Below, piece by piece: positions 11,150 through 37,084 of a stretch of 47,210 nt of DNA. Position 1 is the first letter of the stretch. Each line of letters opens with the position of its first letter. The DNA is from Sphingomonas segetis (lineage in GTDB: Bacteria; Pseudomonadota; Alphaproteobacteria; Sphingomonadales; Sphingomonadaceae), in contig NZ_WJSQ01000003.1 of NCBI RefSeq assembly GCF_009720245.1, forward strand, positions 1 to 47,210. The letters run 5' to 3'. The notes below the pieces were generated by a model, which saw only the letters and a program-made list of their open reading frames with translations, made no database searches and was not told the DNA's origin. A program made the translations under genes and the position numbers.

Positions 11150-11523
11150 TGGCTACTCGCGCGAACGTATTCCCTTCCGGCGAAGAAACATTTCCGCGCT
11201 CGCTGTTCGGCGGGCCGTCGCGGCGCAGTTATCGCGCTGCAATCAAAGAAATAATCCTCAACGTCAAGGCGCGTTACGGCCTCTCCGATTGGGACTTGGC
11301 CGAGCGCATCGGAGTTCACAAAGACACGATTGAGAACGCGCAGGAAGAGGTTGCGAACCTCGACGTTGTGACCCTTCTCAACATTGCCTGGACGTTCGGC
11401 GAGGACGCGATTGCGCCCGTCCGCGCGCTCTACCTCTGCGCCGTCCGCGAGCCCGAAACCGCAACCGAGAAGCGCCGCCGTCTGATCCGTGAGCTAGCTG
11501 CATTGGAGGATGGTGATGGGTAA
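11149..11523 (+). CDS. XRE-like regulatory protein (124 residues)
   Basis: The middle of the protein has a helix-turn-helix-like pattern: IILNVKARYGLSDWDLAERI then GVHKDTIENAQEEVANLDVV and TLLNIAWTFGEDAI. The C-terminus is a charged helix. This fits a phage DNA-binding regulator, perhaps of the replication operon. The start is coupled by TAATG. Confidence 0.65.
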   Translation: MATRANVFPSGEETFPRSLFGGPSRRSYRAAIKEIILNVKARYGLSDWDLAERIGVHKDTIENAQEEVANLDVVTLLNIAWTFGEDAIAPVRALYLCAVREPETATEKRRRLIRELAALEDGDG

Positions 11524-12040
11524 GCGCTCAAACTTCGAGCGCATCCCGCGCGACTTCTACCCGACGCCGTATGAGGCCGTCGTTCCGCTGTTGCCGCATT
11601 TAGCTCCGGTCACGCTATTCGACGAGCCTTGCGCTGGCGATGGAGCGCTGATCGGCCATCTTCGCAAGCACGGCCACGTCCTTCTCAAATGTTGCGATAT
11701 AGAGCCACGGGTGCCGTGGATTGCGACCGGCGATGCAACGAAGATTGGGCCGGGATCGGTTGCCGATTGCTACATAACAAATCCGCCGTGGGAGCGAGCG
11801 GCCCTTCACGCGATAATCTCCAATCTCAGCGCTCATTTGCCAACATGGCTGCTGTTCGACGCCGACTGGATGCACACGCGGCAATCGACTCCCTTCATGC
11901 CCTACCTACGCAAGATCGTGAGCGTCGGGCGGGTCAAATGGATTCCCGACAGCAAGATGACCGGCAAGGACAACTGCTGCTGGTATCTGTTCGATCAGGC
12001 GGATGATGCGCCGGCTCAATTCATCGGGAGGGCAGCATGA
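11516..12040 (+). CDS. DNA adenine methyltransferase-like protein
   Basis: This 174-residue protein contains the SAM-binding motif TLFDEPCAGDGALIGHL and the catalytic motif YITNPPWERAALH, typical of amino-methyltransferases acting on adenine N6. It is short, with no clear separate target-recognition domain, and no restriction endonuclease partner is adjacent. It may modify phage DNA against host restriction. GGAGG lies 6 bases before the ATG at 11516, which is preferred over 11510. The target sequence cannot be read from the gene. Confidence 0.8.
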   Translation: MGKRSNFERIPRDFYPTPYEAVVPLLPHLAPVTLFDEPCAGDGALIGHLRKHGHVLLKCCDIEPRVPWIATGDATKIGPGSVADCYITNPPWERAALHAIISNLSAHLPTWLLFDADWMHTRQSTPFMPYLRKIVSVGRVKWIPDSKMTGKDNCCWYLFDQADDAPAQFIGRAA

Positions 12041-12174
12041 TCGCCCGCGTCGGCAAGGCGCTGTGGCGCGCATATCTGAATAGCGTCTTGTGGTTCACCC
12101 TCGGCGCAATCCTCGCGTCTGTGAACGCCTTTATCATCCTGACTGCGGTTTATCATGCGGGGGTTTGCCGATGA
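12037..12174 (+). CDS. Small membrane protein (45 residues)
   Basis: The ATG overlaps the methyltransferase stop (ATGA). A single long hydrophobic stretch spans residues 17-40 (VLWFTLGAILASVNAFIILT). The stop at 12172-12174 overlaps an 8-codon frame (12171-12197) that ends 5 bases before the HNH gene. Function unknown. Confidence 0.5.
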   Translation: MIARVGKALWRAYLNSVLWFTLGAILASVNAFIILTAVYHAGVCR

Positions 12175-12202
12175 ACTTCCGCCACCAGGAGCAATAGAGA
12201 AT

Positions 12203-12781
12203 ATGGCGGGGGAAGATATGGCGCATCCCTTGCGGGACCGGGCTGGCGCTGCGATCGGACAGGCGACGCGGCGCAAGGAATGGCGCACGCTCGATTGGCT
12301 GCCGGGATATGAAATCTCGGAAGATGGCGACATCCGCCACACAACGAAAAAGGCGACTAGGCCAGCGGGCTACGTCGTCAAGGGATGCGTCAACGGGCAA
12401 GGCTATTTAAAGGCCAAGCTGTCCACGCCGACCGGCAAGCGGCAATTGGCGATTCACCGCCTCGTCTGTGAGGCGTTCCACGGTCCGCAACCTAGCCCGG
12501 ACGCCTTCCATGTCGCGCACGGCGACGGCAACCCGCTGAACAACCACTACACCAATCTTCGCTGGGCGACATGCAAGGACAACCTGGCGGATCGTCGGCG
12601 ACATGGGACACATCCAAACGGTGAGCGCAACCCGCGCGCTCGTCTGACGTGGGATGACGTGCGGAGCATCCGCCGGCGCTTCGTCGGGGATCGGGGTGAG
12701 GTTGCGGCATTGGCTCGCGAATACGGCGTTTCTCACGGCGCGATGCAAGCCGTCTGCAACGGGAGCCACTGGCATGAATGA
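12203..12781 (+). CDS. NUMOD4/HNH homing-type endonuclease
   Basis: This protein has an N-terminal NUMOD4-like part (EWRTLDWLPGYEISEDGDIR), then the HNH core IHRLVCEAFHG ... VAHGDGNPLNNHYTNLRW and finally a helix-turn-helix-like C-terminus (VAALAREYGVSHGAMQAVC). Phage-borne HNH enzymes of this type often act as homing nucleases that spread by cutting related phages. The start could be the ATG at 12203 or the ATG at 12218, which has GGGGGA 5 bases upstream. It is inserted between an early membrane protein and replication genes. Confidence 0.82.
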   Translation: MAGEDMAHPLRDRAGAAIGQATRRKEWRTLDWLPGYEISEDGDIRHTTKKATRPAGYVVKGCVNGQGYLKAKLSTPTGKRQLAIHRLVCEAFHGPQPSPDAFHVAHGDGNPLNNHYTNLRWATCKDNLADRRRHGTHPNGERNPRARLTWDDVRSIRRRFVGDRGEVAALAREYGVSHGAMQAVCNGSHWHE

Positions 12782-14111: not shown

Positions 14112-14584
14112 ACGGCTACACGGAAAAGGCGCTGGATTGGTTGCGCGATTATATTGAATGGGCCGCGCGCGAAGTCGGCGGACAGTGCGAGAGTCCGATT
14201 GAGGACGGCCTTTTGCGTTGCTTTATCGCCATGCGTCTGGCCGATCGTCGGTTCCGCGTGGATGGGCTGCGGTCGGGGCCGATCCTCACCGATTGGGAGG
14301 CGGTTATCTACCCGCAGCACAGGGTCGCGGGATACCGCCTTGATTTCGCCGTCAAGGTAGAAAACGGAACGAATGTGTCGTGGATTGCCGTCGAGTGTGA
14401 CGGGCACGACTTCCACGAACGTACAAAAGAGCAGGCCGCTCGCGACAAGGCGCGCGACCGATTTCTGACGACCGCAGGCTTTCGCATTCTGCGGTTCACC
14501 GGCTCCGAGATTTACGCAAACCCGATGGGCTGCGCTCTCCAGGTGTCGGAGCTTGCTGCGAAGATTGTGGAAGGTTGGGAGTGA
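14108..14584 (+). CDS. PD-(D/E)XK endonuclease-like protein (DUF559/Vsr-like)
   Basis: This 158-residue protein has GQCESPIEDGLLRCF in the N-terminal half, then AGYRLDFAVKV and WIAVECDGHDFHERTKEQ followed by ARDRFLTTAGFRILRFTGSE. The Asp ... Glu-Cys-Asp-Gly-His pattern and the downstream RFTGSEI motif are typical of DUF559/Vsr-fold nucleases. It may nick or repair DNA, or attack competitors; nothing decides which. The GTG at 14108 overlaps the previous stop. Confidence 0.75.
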   Translation: MNGYTEKALDWLRDYIEWAAREVGGQCESPIEDGLLRCFIAMRLADRRFRVDGLRSGPILTDWEAVIYPQHRVAGYRLDFAVKVENGTNVSWIAVECDGHDFHERTKEQAARDKARDRFLTTAGFRILRFTGSEIYANPMGCALQVSELAAKIVEGWE

Positions 14585-15123
14585 GCATTGCAACTCTCAT
14601 CCGACGCATGACGGACGCAGGGGCCCCACCAGAAGCCATCGCGCTCGCTGTCGAGGAAATCGAGGCGCTTCAGCTCGCCCTAGATTCCCGCCGCAATGCG
14701 GATCGGGACAGAAAGCGCGCACAACGGGAGCGGCGGAAATCAGCCAGTGTCACGGGACATTCCGAGGACAGTCACGGGACAGTCACGCCCAACCCTTCCC
14801 CGGATAAAGTTTCCCCCCAGACCCCTCTTCAAAATAACCCCAACCCATCACCCCCCTATAATCCCCCCGCTTCCCAGAGACGCGGCACCCGACTCCCCGA
14901 CAACTTCGAGATGCCGGATGAGTGGATCGTCTGGGCGGCAGGAAAGCGTGGCTGGTCGCGAGCCGATGCCCGGGAGGAAGGCGAGTGCTTCGTCCGGTTT
15001 TGGCAAGCCAAGCCTGGGCGTGAAGCCTGCAAGCTCGATTGGCTCAAGACCTGGCAGAATTGGGTGACCAACTCGCGTCGCAAGCCGAGCGGAATCGACG
15101 AGGGCAGGAGCATGTTGTGCTGA
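14581..15123 (+). CDS. DnaT-like primosomal protein / helicase loader
   Basis: The 180-residue protein has an N-terminal helical part with a basic segment (RDRKRAQRERRKSA), a long Pro/Asn/Ser-rich linker, and a C-terminal domain with EWIVWAAGKRGWSRADA, ECFVRFWQAK and LDWLKTWQNWVTN. The spaced aromatic pattern W...FW...DW..tW.nWV is that of the DnaT DNA-binding domain found in phage replication proteins. It directly precedes the primase-helicase, which it may load. GTGA overlap fixes the start at 14581. Confidence 0.78.
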   Translation: MSIATLIRRMTDAGAPPEAIALAVEEIEALQLALDSRRNADRDRKRAQRERRKSASVTGHSEDSHGTVTPNPSPDKVSPQTPLQNNPNPSPPYNPPASQRRGTRLPDNFEMPDEWIVWAAGKRGWSRADAREEGECFVRFWQAKPGREACKLDWLKTWQNWVTNSRRKPSGIDEGRSMLC

Positions 15124-15605
15124 AGCCGGGGAAGTTCGTCTGTCCCGTCTGCACGCCAACGCGGAAGCACAAGCGGGACAGGAGTTTGAGCGTCAGTCGA
15201 GTGGAGGGCGGATATGCATGGAAATGCCACAATGCCGGATGCACCAATCAAGGATTTGAAAGCGACGGCGTTGCACGACCGGCACCGCGCGTGGATCGAA
15301 GCGCGCGGGATTTCCGCCGACCTCGCTCAGAAGTTCGGGCTGGAAACGGTGCGCCGGGACGGCAAGGCGTGGTTGGCGGTTCCCTACGTCGAGCGCGGCC
15401 TGACGGTGAACCACAAGTATCGGCTGACCTCCGAAAAGCGGCACCAGATGGACCAGGGCGGCAAGCTGACCCTGTGGAACCACGACTGCCTGCTTCAGGA
15501 TTCGGACAAGCCGGTGGTGATTTGCGAGGGCGAATGGGATGCGCTGACCGCCCTTCAGTTGGGCTACAGGGCAGTCTCCGTTCCGAACGGGGCGTCGGGC
15601 GGTGA
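15117..15605 (+). CDS. Primase zinc-finger frame, out of frame with the helicase (split or frameshifted gene)
   Basis: A GTG at 15117 has AGGAG 6 bases upstream. Its first 45 codons encode a T7 gp4-like zinc domain: KFVCPVC, a basic loop, then YAWKCHNAGC. In T7 this domain is fused to the Toprim-helicase part, but here that part is in the +1 frame. After about 15270 this frame merely reads across the Toprim region, giving an Arg/Pro-rich tail up to 15605. Joining the two would need +1 frameshifting between about 15245 and 15290, or loss of one base. The case for a real zinc module is good; the 117-residue tail is probably meaningless. Confidence 0.65.
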   Translation: MLKPGKFVCPVCTPTRKHKRDRSLSVSRVEGGYAWKCHNAGCTNQGFESDGVARPAPRVDRSARDFRRPRSEVRAGNGAPGRQGVVGGSLRRARPDGEPQVSADLRKAAPDGPGRQADPVEPRLPASGFGQAGGDLRGRMGCADRPSVGLQGSLRSERGVGR

Positions 15606-16659
15606 AGGCAAGCTCGAATACCTCTGGGAAGCGCGCGACCTCCTGAACCGCGTCCAGACGTTCATCCTCGCGACCGACAATGACGAAGCGGGGTTGAAGC
15701 TTAGAGCCAACCTCGTCGCTCACCTTGGGGCGGATCGCTGCAAGTTCGTCGATTACGGGCCGGAGTGCAAAGACCTCAATGAAACGCTGCTCGGATACGG
15801 CGCGGACTATGCGCGGCTCGTTCTCGACAATGCCAAGCCGATGCCGGTCAAGGGGCTCTACACGATCGACGATTTCCCCGAGCGGCCCGAGCTGACCGCA
15901 TGGCAGACGGGGATCGAGCCGCTGAACGATACCGGGGACACGTCGCGGCCCGCGCTCTACATCGTGCCGGGGACACTTACCGTTTTCACCGGCCACGCCA
16001 ACATGGGCAAGACGACGGTGATGGACAGCGTTGTCGCGCACCTGCTCAAGGTCGGGGTTCCTACCCTCGTCGCATCATTCGAGACGGACGTGAAGCCGAT
16101 CCTGCGCGATGGAATCAGGGCGGCGATGCTCGGCTGCGGTTCTCACGAATTGCGGAACGCGGACCTCTCGGCGTGCGACGCGCTCATTCGCGAGCGGCTT
16201 CGGATCATCACGCAATCGGTTGACGAGGACCAGGAGATGGACCTCGATTATTTCCTCGACCTGTGCCGCGTGTCGGTCCAGCGCGACGGCACCCGCGTCA
16301 TCATCCTCGATCCGTGGAACGAGCTTGAGCACAAGATGCGCCACGGCGAGCCGGAGACGGTCTACATCGGCCGCGCGCTTCGGGCGATCAAGCGGTTTGC
16401 CAAGGTCCACGACGTGGCGTTCTGGATCGTCGCGCATCCAACAAAGCCATTCGAGGGCAAGGTGAGGATGCCCCGCCTGCTGGATATTTCCGGCTCCGCG
16501 AATTGGGCGAACAAGGCTGATTTCGGGCTCAGCTATCACCGCGGCGAGCATGACGCGGACCTGTGCGTGACGAAGGTTCGCAAGGGCTATCCGGGGCGTC
16601 GGGGCAACGTGAAGGTCAATTACGACTTCCGCATCTCGCGGTTCGTCGAGGCAGCATAA
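15214..16659 (+). CDS. T7 gp4/Twinkle-type primase-helicase (Toprim plus DnaB-like helicase)
   Basis: This 481-residue protein has a Toprim domain (VVICEGEWDALTALQLGY with Glu105; ILATDNDEAG with the Asp pair at 155/157) and a ring helicase domain with Walker A GHANMGKTT (260-268) and Walker B VIILDPWNE. A SGSANWANKADFGL motif follows. It should unwind DNA and synthesise primers at the phage fork. The ATG at 15214 lies inside the zinc-finger frame and has GGAGGG about 10 bases upstream, so it would give a protein like T7 gp4B, which lacks the zinc domain. No phage DNA polymerase is seen, so host polymerase is probably used. Confidence 0.9.
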   Translation: MHGNATMPDAPIKDLKATALHDRHRAWIEARGISADLAQKFGLETVRRDGKAWLAVPYVERGLTVNHKYRLTSEKRHQMDQGGKLTLWNHDCLLQDSDKPVVICEGEWDALTALQLGYRAVSVPNGASGGEGKLEYLWEARDLLNRVQTFILATDNDEAGLKLRANLVAHLGADRCKFVDYGPECKDLNETLLGYGADYARLVLDNAKPMPVKGLYTIDDFPERPELTAWQTGIEPLNDTGDTSRPALYIVPGTLTVFTGHANMGKTTVMDSVVAHLLKVGVPTLVASFETDVKPILRDGIRAAMLGCGSHELRNADLSACDALIRERLRIITQSVDEDQEMDLDYFLDLCRVSVQRDGTRVIILDPWNELEHKMRHGEPETVYIGRALRAIKRFAKVHDVAFWIVAHPTKPFEGKVRMPRLLDISGSANWANKADFGLSYHRGEHDADLCVTKVRKGYPGRRGNVKVNYDFRISRFVEAA

Positions 16660-34270: not shown

Positions 34271-34607
34271 TAGTCTGATGGACGCTGTGATCCAGCAGGA
34301 AAGCCACGGCAACGGAACCGCCGTGAGCCCGAAAGGCGCATTGGGCTCGACGCAGCTCATGCCGGGAACCGCGAAGGAAATGGCGACCAAGCTGGGCTTG
34401 CCGTTTCGGCCCGACATGCTGCGCTCGAACGATCCCGGCGCTCTGAAATACCAGCGGGCGTTGGCCTCAGCCTATCTCCGCGAAGGGCTGGAAAGGACCG
34501 GCAACATCACTGACGCGCTGCATTACTACCACGGCGGGCCTGACCGCTCGCAGTGGGGGCCGCTGACCCGCGCCTACGCCAACGAAGTCCTTGCGAGGCT
34601 CCAGTAA
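34260..34607 (+). CDS. Virion-associated lytic transglycosylase (SLT domain)
   Basis: The 115 residues are a bare SLT domain: AVIQQESHGNGTAVSPKGAL with the catalytic Glu, then GSTQLMPGTAKEMATKLG and ALHYYHGGPDRSQWGP. It should open peptidoglycan locally during DNA entry. The ATG at 34260 overlaps the previous gene by 11 bases; the alternative at 34278 would remove six residues. In some podophages this domain is fused to a large internal protein; here it is separate. Confidence 0.88.
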   Translation: MAFDSLMDAVIQQESHGNGTAVSPKGALGSTQLMPGTAKEMATKLGLPFRPDMLRSNDPGALKYQRALASAYLREGLERTGNITDALHYYHGGPDRSQWGPLTRAYANEVLARLQ

Positions 34608-37084
34608 TGGCCGGCCCGTTCACCGTCCCCGACAGCGACCGGATCGACCTCACTCCCCCTACGGGAATGACAATCGAGCCGTTGCCCGAAAAGCCCAGGC
34701 AGCCGACGCCGCAAACCCCGGCACAGGCGGCCAAGGACGAGCTTGAAGTCGAGAAGCTGCGGCGTGACCTCGCAAAGACACCCGAAACCGATCCGGCGCT
34801 GGCGCAGTCGATCAAGGGCCTCGGCCTCGACGAATGGCTTACCAACGTCACTCGCGCCCGCAAGCAGATCGACACGGGCTTTGCGACGGGCGTTCTCGGC
34901 TCGCTCGCCGGTCATTTCCCCGGCACGCCGCGCAAGGACTTCCTCGGCGCGCTTGAGGGCATCAAGGGCGCGTCCATTCTCGAAAAGCTCCAGGCGCTGC
35001 GCGAGCAAAGCAAGACCGGCGCATCTGGAATGGGGTCGCTGACCGAGCAGGAAGGCGAGCGGCTCGCCAACTCCATCGCGTCTCTCAGCCCCGACATGAG
35101 CGCCGACGAACTCAAGACGAGCCTCGATATTGTCGAGCGCCACGCGAAGGCGCTGAAGGCGATTGGCGAGGGCAAGAACCCGACCGATCCGGAAGTGCAA
35201 AAGGAATACGGGATTGCCCCGCTTCCCGATGCAAAACCGGCCATCGATCCGAACCCGATCGCACGCGGTGGCGACGGCGAGCAGGGACCGACGCTCACCC
35301 CGTCTGCCGGTCAAACCCGCGCTGTCATCGATCCCAAACAGCAGGAGCTTGGCAACAAGATTGCCTCCCTGATGAGCAAGGGAGCGGATCGCAACACGAT
35401 CCTTGGCTTTGCGGTTCGCGCGTCTCCCAAGCTCCGCACCGATCCGAAGTTCCGCGCTTGGGTCGATCAGGCTTTGGCGTATCGGCAAAAGCACCCCGGC
35501 GCGAAGTTCGGTGTCGATCCGACATTCTACACGACAGACGTTCCGCTTTCCGCTGGCGAGCAGGTTGCGAACGACATCGCCCAGAGCGCTCCCGGCGCGG
35601 CGATCATGGAAGCCGGCAACGCGGCGACCGCTGGATTGGTCGGGCCGCTTACCGGCAAGACGGACGAGATCAACCGCGCACTTGGCGTTGCGGAACAGCA
35701 GCACCCCAACGCCTCTCTTGCGGGAACGCTTGCCGGCGGCGCGACCGCTGCCCTTGGCCTCGAAAGCGTCCTTGGCAAGCTCGGCATGGCACCGGGGCTT
35801 CTGAGAGGCGCTCTTGCCGACAGCGCTTACGGTGGAGCCGCCGGTGGCGCGACGGGCGACCAAAGCACGGCAGCGAATATCCTCAACGGAGCACTCGTCG
35901 GGGCTGGCGGAAGTCTCGCCGGCCAAGCCTTGCTGAAGGTTCCCGGCGCACTCGCCAGGGGGGTGACTTCGCCGACGATCAACGCGGTCGCAAAGGAAGA
36001 AGTGCCGCTCACCATCGGGCAGGCGCTTAGTCAGTCGGGAACGGCGGGCAAGGCCCTGAAGAGCGCCGAGGACCGTCTGAGCGGAATCCCCATCGTCGGC
36101 GATGCGATCAACGCTCGCCGAATCGAGGGATTGCAGAAGATGAACAGCCGCGCGTTCGACCGCGCGCTTGAGCCGATCAAGGGCAATGCCGGCGGCAAGT
36201 TCGGCGAAGAGGCTGTCGCGGACGCACAGGCGCAAGTCGGGCAGGCGTTCCAGAAAGCGTTGGGCGGCAAGGTCGCGTCGGTCGATCATCCGTTCATCGC
36301 GGAAGCGACGCAGGCGCAGCGGGCGATCCAGAAGCTCCCACCGAGCGTCGCACCTGACGTTCAGAACCTCGTGGACTCCGCGATCAACGATTATGTCGAT
36401 CCCGCCACGCTCAGCGTTCGCGGCGAGGACGTTCAGCCGCTTCTTCAAGAGCTGGAGGGCATCAAGTCCTCCTACTATTCACAGAAGCACCCGGCTCAGA
36501 AGCGCATCGGCGATGCCGTCGATAAGATGATCGATGCGGTCGAGGGCATTTTCCAGCGCCAGCACCCCGGAACCATCGCCGATTATGACGCGGCCAAAAA
36601 GGCGTTCAAGCGCGTCTCGACGCTGGAGAATGCGGTCCTTGCCGCCAAGAACACGTCACAGGACGGCAACGCGCTGTTCACGTCCGCGCAGCTCGGCACC
36701 GCCGACAAGGCGAACACGATCAAATATGGCGGGCGGCACGCGGCTGCGGCCGGCAAGAGCGAGTTCCACGATTTCCAGCGCAACATGCAGGAAGTCTTGC
36801 CGAGCAAGGTTCCCGACAGCGGCACGGCGGGGCGGCTTGTGCTCCCGGCGCTCGCCATCGGAGCCGGAACCGGAGCGGGCGCGGGAAGCGGATATACCGG
36901 CACTGGCCTGACGCTCGGCGGGCTGATCGCGCTTGCCTATACCAAGGCGGGCCAACGGGCGCTTGTCGGAAGCATCACGGGGCGCGGGCCGGCAGCTCAG
37001 GCGGTCGGCAAGGCGCTCGGCAAGGCTGGCAGGGTTACGGGCGCGGTAGGCGCTCAGGCGGCTTTGGCGAAGCCCCATGACTAG
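34607..37084 (+). CDS. Large ejection protein (825 residues), gp16-like by position
   Basis: The start is coupled by TAATG. The first 250 residues are charged and Pro-rich, then there are Gly/Ala-rich hydrophobic segments (AGTLAGGATAALGLESVLG; GALVGAGGSLAGQALLKVPG) and another near the C-terminus (LVLPALAIGAGTGAGAGSGY; GLTLGGLIALAYTKAG). Such segments may insert into the membrane during DNA ejection. The middle is helical. No enzyme motif is seen. Confidence 0.78.
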   Translation: MAGPFTVPDSDRIDLTPPTGMTIEPLPEKPRQPTPQTPAQAAKDELEVEKLRRDLAKTPETDPALAQSIKGLGLDEWLTNVTRARKQIDTGFATGVLGSLAGHFPGTPRKDFLGALEGIKGASILEKLQALREQSKTGASGMGSLTEQEGERLANSIASLSPDMSADELKTSLDIVERHAKALKAIGEGKNPTDPEVQKEYGIAPLPDAKPAIDPNPIARGGDGEQGPTLTPSAGQTRAVIDPKQQELGNKIASLMSKGADRNTILGFAVRASPKLRTDPKFRAWVDQALAYRQKHPGAKFGVDPTFYTTDVPLSAGEQVANDIAQSAPGAAIMEAGNAATAGLVGPLTGKTDEINRALGVAEQQHPNASLAGTLAGGATAALGLESVLGKLGMAPGLLRGALADSAYGGAAGGATGDQSTAANILNGALVGAGGSLAGQALLKVPGALARGVTSPTINAVAKEEVPLTIGQALSQSGTAGKALKSAEDRLSGIPIVGDAINARRIEGLQKMNSRAFDRALEPIKGNAGGKFGEEAVADAQAQVGQAFQKALGGKVASVDHPFIAEATQAQRAIQKLPPSVAPDVQNLVDSAINDYVDPATLSVRGEDVQPLLQELEGIKSSYYSQKHPAQKRIGDAVDKMIDAVEGIFQRQHPGTIADYDAAKKAFKRVSTLENAVLAAKNTSQDGNALFTSAQLGTADKANTIKYGGRHAAAAGKSEFHDFQRNMQEVLPSKVPDSGTAGRLVLPALAIGAGTGAGAGSGYTGTGLTLGGLIALAYTKAGQRALVGSITGRGPAAQAVGKALGKAGRVTGAVGAQAALAKPHD

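Follow-up and report, generated by a model that had tools for sequence, protein, structure and literature searches.

Two plus-strand genes that overlap by 392 bases lie at the locus under study, within a window (the whole stretch of DNA that was analyzed) of 47,210 nucleotides, which makes up one entire contig of a bacterial assembly. The first is a zinc-ribbon gene of 162 aa at 15117-15605, running from a GTG start to a TGA at 15603-15605 and preceded by a Shine-Dalgarno-like AGGAG at 15106-15110, 6 bases 5′ of the GTG as read from the sequence; the frame is open, and in relatives it is under selection. Its product combines a C4 zinc ribbon at approximately residues 1-50 (core at 15141-15242, with Cys codons at 15141, 15150, 15225 and 15240) with a tail of approximately 111 residues, all of it encoded in the -1 frame of the second gene, a T7 gp4B-like Toprim-helicase gene of 481 aa at 15214-16659 whose exact start is uncertain. 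Within this second gene the Toprim domain occupies approximately 15517-15789 and the DnaB-like helicase domain approximately 15967-16647, and a Shine-Dalgarno-like GGAGGG (15203-15208) stands 5 bases 5′ of the ATG at 15214. The layout is as the earlier note on this DNA had described it, with the zinc finger in a GTG frame led by a ribosome site and the Toprim-helicase in the +1 frame from an internal ATG with a ribosome site of its own. What that note did not contain is that the zinc frame runs on past the joint to its TGA. The joint is the first main-frame codon that is clearly conserved in relatives, the Leu/Ile of a [LI]H..H..W motif, and is TTG at 15271-15273 in the window. Since the zinc frame is open as far as this TGA, the two genes overlap at 15214-15605, with 335 of the bases past the joint; dual coding of this region was tested in relatives.

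Directly 5′ lies a primosomal or replication-initiation-like gene (14575-15123, plus strand; phrog_3992, 9.1e-15), whose last 7 bases are shared with the start of the zinc gene, such that the gene order is initiator, zinc protein, Toprim-helicase. The phage gene content of the window includes integrase, terminase and portal genes. At 11510-12040 and 12155-12781 a DNA methyltransferase-like gene with a partial family-profile match adjoins an HNH endonuclease, and a 624-codon open frame on the minus strand (34574-36448) runs antisense to a large plus-strand gene (34553-37084); this antisense frame may be a by-product of GC-rich coding.

The +1 frame is recognized by Pfam as Toprim_2 and DnaB_C, with the Toprim domain preceding the DnaB-like helicase within one protein as in T7 gp4-type enzymes, and the top PHROGs match is DNA primase/helicase (6.4e-68). 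T7 gp4 is the sole relative of solved structure at E < 0.01; the match covers 417 residues of the second gene product, 27-443 here against 80-504 in T7. As this alignment begins at T7 residue 80, the second gene begins about where gp4B begins, which is presumably Met64 in T7. In the product, a predicted primase-helicase, neither the Toprim E-G-E and D-x-D residues nor the nucleotide-binding G/K residues vary across 25 aligned relatives. The N-terminal zinc ribbon of a T7 gp4-type enzyme is not part of this polypeptide; it is found in a different frame in the window and in most relatives. The best start candidate in the window, ATG 15214, is 19 codons upstream of the joint and has a Shine-Dalgarno pairing of -9.8 kcal/mol, compared to a median of -2.7 at random positions; as the nearest relatives (L003-L005, 83–85% identity) have an ATG closer to the joint, the N-terminus of the window's Toprim-helicase is less certain than its frame.

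In the zinc frame the cysteines follow the pattern C9-x2-C12 ... C37-x4-C42 of a C4 zinc ribbon, and C9, C12, C37 and C42 are invariant in 56 aligned sequences. AlphaFold (56 aligned sequences) models residues 1-50 as a confident small beta zinc ribbon with block-mean pLDDT of 91–96, and the tail without secondary structure, at a block-mean pLDDT of 69 and then 50–60 after residue 60. This tail, predicted by the model to be disordered and termed Arg-rich from its letters rather than from a computed charge, has modest conservation that is largely a shadow of the main frame. The median length of the zinc protein among relatives is approximately 170 residues, with starts set by a nearest-start rule. 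Pfam returned nothing above the curated cut-off for codons 1-94 of the zinc frame in the window, PHROGs returned just a weak family of unknown function for the whole zinc ORF (0.0088), and a profile search of solved structures with the zinc protein had a top E of 0.054. The top Foldseek match is the zinc ribbon of ELOF1, at only E 0.45, a further fold comparison gave Z 3.7, and T7 gp4 is absent among the matches listed for the zinc part in the fold and structure-profile searches. As T7 gp4 is not among these matches, the kinship of the zinc part to the T7 zinc domain rests on its position, its Cys pattern and the continuous relatives, in which zinc ribbon and Toprim-helicase share one frame. 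The zinc ribbon is regarded as a displaced primase zinc domain because the ribbon of one split relative (L089) resembles the in-frame N-terminus of the continuous L220, with 53% identity over 59 residues. In the T7 enzyme, according to an excerpt of PMC5517523, the zinc-binding domain recognizes the template sequence.

Relatives were drawn from viral contigs, genomes, phage records and plasmids, and the alignment-led scans covered the best 80 of 320 and the best 80 of at least 587 relatives. Among the matches listed, a -1 position of the zinc motif with respect to the Toprim-helicase frame is seen in 89 of the 92 anchored loci of a first set, which includes near-duplicates and the window's own IMG/VR copy, and in 52 of the 54 anchored loci of a more distant set; other arrangements may exist beyond the matches listed. 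The same -1 zinc frame is carried by Bradyrhizobium phage BDU-MI-1 (L163) and by a Microvirga plasmid. The exceptions include one continuous locus in each set (L058 and L220, respectively). The first set also holds L143, which is one contig with L191 and has a DnaG-type finger of the CHC2 type (PF01807, 1.2e-29) in the same -1 slot (L143:1230-1898); to judge by the sequence, this looks like a domain swap in which the frame relation was kept. The third exception of this set is L050, from a metagenome-assembled Rhodospirillales genome, in which the finger sequence itself is divided between frames, probably as the result of an assembly fault or indel. The other exception of the distant set, the prophage copy L190, has a further frame change: near position 1501 the Toprim-helicase match begins from residue 43, and the conserved domain start is just upstream in another frame. 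This second change is put down to error or decay.

After removal of near-duplicates (>93–95% identity) and exceptions, 127 non-redundant -1 loci were kept; L050, L058, L190, L220, L246 and the near-duplicates are thereby left out. The 127 comprise 90 long-tail sequences (46–85% identity to the window, which is among them) and 37 short-tail sequences (34–42% identity). The strict zinc motif is present in 127/127, a count that is no test of the -1 relation because the loci were selected for that relation. The distance between the last Cys and the joint differs among them, and the tree requires at least 48 changes in it. In the same tree the long-tail rows form one side of a branch (100% SH-aLRT), seven continuous rows form one side of another (98% SH-aLRT), and the short-tail rows form no single group and are placed between these two; an eighth continuous record is L249. 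The three states need only two changes, and the tree is compatible with a single origin of the split and a single origin of the long tail. As the frame break is conserved across relatives, with the continuous ones in a separate group, it is old and has been maintained.

No anchor was found in eight loci (L099, L100, L101, L102, L163, L147, L148 and L149): four of them (L099, L101, L163 and L147) were retained after manual anchoring, L100 and L102 were left out, and L148 and L149 were later dropped. The last Cys of L148 is likewise in the -1 frame, and in L149 the zinc part was not located. The hand-anchored L163 and L147 are out of the region-shuffle and third-base tests. L030 is out of the fourfold-site, region-shuffle and third-base analyses and of the 89-sequence long-tail set, and was cut short in the tree, joint-conservation and strict-motif analyses; its match to the window stops at residue 274, yet its frame continues to 815 codons, which suggests a different or fused C-terminus. 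Loci cut at the 5′ end (L026-L029, L031, L032) and weak genome matches (L059-L065, L150-L162) were left unclassified. Sixteen far loci (L033-L048) are single long frames, with a CHC2-like finger in frame in 5 and no finger found in 11; these are other lineages and enter no count.

A zinc frame needed for nothing beyond the ribbon would be expected to acquire stops shortly after the joint. Among the 127 relatives, no zinc-frame stop occurs between the last Cys and the joint, nor in the first 25 codons past the joint. Under a whole-gene synonymous shuffle the zinc frame of 81 sequences is open for 112 codons past the joint on average, compared to 27 expected; for the window alone, the values are 110 and 37 (p 0.09). 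Codons 1-75 past the joint contain 1 stop against 227 expected in 89 long-tail sequences by this shuffle, and 1 against 121 in 78 long-tail sequences when shuffling is confined to the region, which keeps local composition; 77 of these 78 are stop-free over the 75 codons, where 14 would be expected. In relatives, the zinc frame is thus open for longer than the protein and codon usage of the Toprim-helicase gene would predict. The other sense frame of the long-tail clade has 233 stops over codons 1-75 (203 expected), and the zinc frame has 197 over codons 106-160 (208 expected). A weaker deficit is seen elsewhere in the gene, at codons 161-250 (142 against 209) and 351-450 (245 against 340), and in the continuous relatives, with 9 stops against 18.3 expected, summed over 8 records. 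As this milder depletion occurs elsewhere in the gene and in continuous relatives, part of the stop deficit is sequence bias; judged by these counts, the deficit in the overlap is of a different order from the general mild bias. The sequences are related and z-scores therefore overstate their independence, although fourfold third bases agree in only 32–48% of compared cases.

In 35 non-redundant short-tail sequences, codons 1-25 contain 0 stops where 27 are expected, and codons 31-34 then contain 23 where 7 are expected, and the frame ends 26–37 codons past the joint in 33 of them and at 46 in two. The two sequences that complete the 37, L163 and L147, end 40 and 32 codons past the joint. The stop is TGA in 26, TAG in 8 and TAA in 3, and the codon before it varies as well; it is on these grounds an ordinary stop, and a frameshift at the end of the short-tail zinc frame was rejected. 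A zinc frame that is kept open, and in short-tail relatives ends with an excess of stops and Trp codons, is the pattern that marks dual coding of a second protein.

The earlier note had offered three readings of the break: a +1 frameshift, a zinc part working in trans, or a newly broken primase. Evidence favors the second and neither of the others. A programmed +1 frameshift at the joint would yield a fused gp4A-like zinc-Toprim-helicase, with internal initiation giving a gp4B-like short form; the earlier note suggested it by analogy with T7, and it is unlikely. It would accommodate the -1 relation retained throughout the split lineages, the relatives that lack a start at the joint, and the AGGAG-like sequences just 5′ of the joint in many relatives, which could also stimulate a +1 slip. 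In prfB, an AGGAG-like sequence upstream stimulates such a slip, and the locus resembles this gene in having a ribosome-site-like sequence ahead of a +1 change of frame; it differs in that the joint has neither a stop nor a conserved slip codon, and in that the second frame has a separate start in most relatives. Per-base conservation in 90 + 37 sequences and the codon table reveal no conserved slip site at the joint, and no conserved stop is found there in the 127 relatives; the near-invariant bases are instead the central T of the main-frame Leu/Ile codon and, in the long-tail clade, also main-frame His codons. A slip at the joint would moreover give no reason to keep 25 to >75 further codons open, after which the short-tail frame ends with its excess of stops.

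Start signals bear on the same question, as the second frame is not start-less in the manner of a frameshift gene. An ATG or GTG lies at most 5 codons before the first conserved main-frame residue in 103 of the 127 non-redundant relatives, and 101 of these 103 starts have an anti-Shine-Dalgarno pairing of -4 kcal/mol or stronger, compared to 27% of random sites. In the long-tail clade this ribosome site is often formed by zinc-frame Gly codons just 5′ of the joint. The remaining 24, including the window with its ATG at 15214, have no ATG or GTG within 5 codons of the joint; 4 of them are without any start in the scanned stretch, perhaps owing to the choice of anchor. A programmed frameshift at the joint was rejected on the absence of a conserved slip codon and stop and the presence of these starts; it is not needed and gains no positive support. 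The earlier note had counted conservation of the break among homologues as support for a programmed event. The break is indeed conserved, but this cannot tell the readings apart, since the frame relation would be kept by an overlapping gene as well. Low-level frameshifting on top of two separate products is possible.

Residues encoded by the zinc frame past the joint are also biased. In the 37 short-tail sequences, TGG occurs 38 times in codons 25-38 compared to 15.4 expected (sd 3.2) and at the expected level further along the gene (32 against 29, 64 against 57); Trp is within the last six residues in 30/37 and within the last two in 21/37. The long-tail clade avoids Trp over the same codons 25-38 (4 against 21.6) and over codons 1-75 (34 against 70, with 73 against 59 and 48 against 55 in two control regions), and avoids Cys over codons 1-75 (73 against 125; controls 185 against 174 and 213 against 180). 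In codons 1-25 of the short-tail group, for which no control region was computed, Lys is in excess (41 against 12 expected), and Cys (2 against 18) and His (18 against 48) are rare. Gln and Ala are also biased in control regions, with long-tail codons 201-275 containing 358 Gln where 229 are expected; as control regions show residue biases too, only stops and Trp, plus Cys among the long-tail sequences, are cleanly controlled. Within the overlap, conserved codons have a third-base choice that is modestly more site-specific than further along the gene (p 6e-5). Residue-level selection in the second frame, as expected of overlapping genes, is thus seen in Trp, Cys and third bases, at modest size.

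These biases weigh against a reading that is very unlikely, in which there are two separate genes and the zinc-frame tail is not a functional protein, its frame being open for, e.g., ribosome traffic or codon composition. A tail predicted to be disordered would suit such a reading, as would the milder stop depletion and the residue biases elsewhere in the gene. The depletion in the overlap is, however, sharply bounded and differs between the groups, and composition is controlled for by the region-specific shuffle. Selection on residues is indicated by the excess of stops and Trp codons at the end of the short-tail frame and by the long-tail avoidance of Trp and Cys, which is confined to the overlap. 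The last reading, a sequencing error or a primase freshly broken in this one phage, has the break itself in its favor and nothing further, and its probability is negligible: both error and recent pseudogene are ruled out by conservation of the break, found in other isolates and metagenomes and in the 89/92 and 52/54 relatives, with the Cys residues intact and selection in both frames.

The arrangement is therefore best described, with high confidence, as a T7-type primase-helicase divided between two overlapping genes, of which the first would encode a zinc protein that works in trans with a separately started gp4B-like Toprim-helicase. The first gene (15117-15605) would be translated to a small protein with a C4 zinc ribbon of the type by which primases recognize their template and an Arg-rich, probably disordered tail, and the second (15214-16659, start uncertain) would be initiated independently at its internal, ribosome-site-led start to give the equivalent of T7 gp4B. 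The two together in trans would provide primase activity, and the tail may stand in for the covalent linker, serving in docking or in DNA binding. At the level of sequence, the comparison of relatives demonstrates the conserved frame relation, the dual coding and the independent start signals, and from these we infer that both proteins are translated, that they act in trans and that the tail has such a role. Of the readings in the earlier note, the zinc part in trans appears to be the right one; in addition, the zinc gene extends further than first seen and, by the patterns described above, is dual-coded with the Toprim region.

In phage T7, gp4 is the textbook single-chain primase-helicase, and gp4B is made from an internal start between zinc ribbon and Toprim. 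The locus shares with T7 gene 4 (gp4A/gp4B) the order of zinc ribbon, Toprim RNA-polymerase domain and DnaB-like helicase, as well as the internal start between the first two; unlike T7, the zinc ribbon here is in another frame, there is no single-frame full-length protein, and the zinc gene encodes a tail of its own that reaches into the Toprim gene. The continuous relatives (Synechococcus phage MinM2, L166; phage vB_RanS_PJN03, L167; L164, L165, L168, L220, L058 and L249) likewise have a zinc ribbon and a Toprim-helicase, but in one frame and with a longer linker from zinc ribbon to Toprim. The zinc domain of DnaG can act on a neighboring subunit. Template recognition by a zinc domain that is able to work in trans would be a likeness to DnaG, and the DnaG-type finger of L143 is another; DnaG differs in being one polypeptide with no fused helicase.

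No report of a split zinc and Toprim-helicase arrangement was found in the titles or abstract beginnings of the literature searched, and the excerpts of PMC9198812, PMC5517523 and PMC8008677 do not describe it. In BDU-MI-1, a 95-codon zinc-ribbon gene (L163:1838-2125) overlaps the annotated primase/helicase and is missing from the GenBank annotation. For the Microvirga plasmid, the PLSDB table, which is incomplete by its own statement, has only the Toprim-helicase and leaves the zinc gene unlisted. As the zinc gene is unlisted in both annotated split records compared, it may be missing from annotations more widely.

A broader form of the two-gene reading, toward which the evidence leans by a little, is that this is an old and widespread overlapping gene, unnamed as far as was searched, which encodes a zinc protein with a disordered Arg-rich tail in the -1 frame of its partner's Toprim region. 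The two halves of the enzyme would then be co-encoded and have to evolve together, and the tail would replace the covalent linker and accept another zinc domain, as with the DnaG-type finger of L143. For double-stranded DNA phages, the locus offers a clear candidate case of extended dual coding across a catalytic domain. The zinc domain of a T7 gp4-type enzyme appears to have been untethered in nature, which would open the need for the tether to direct testing.
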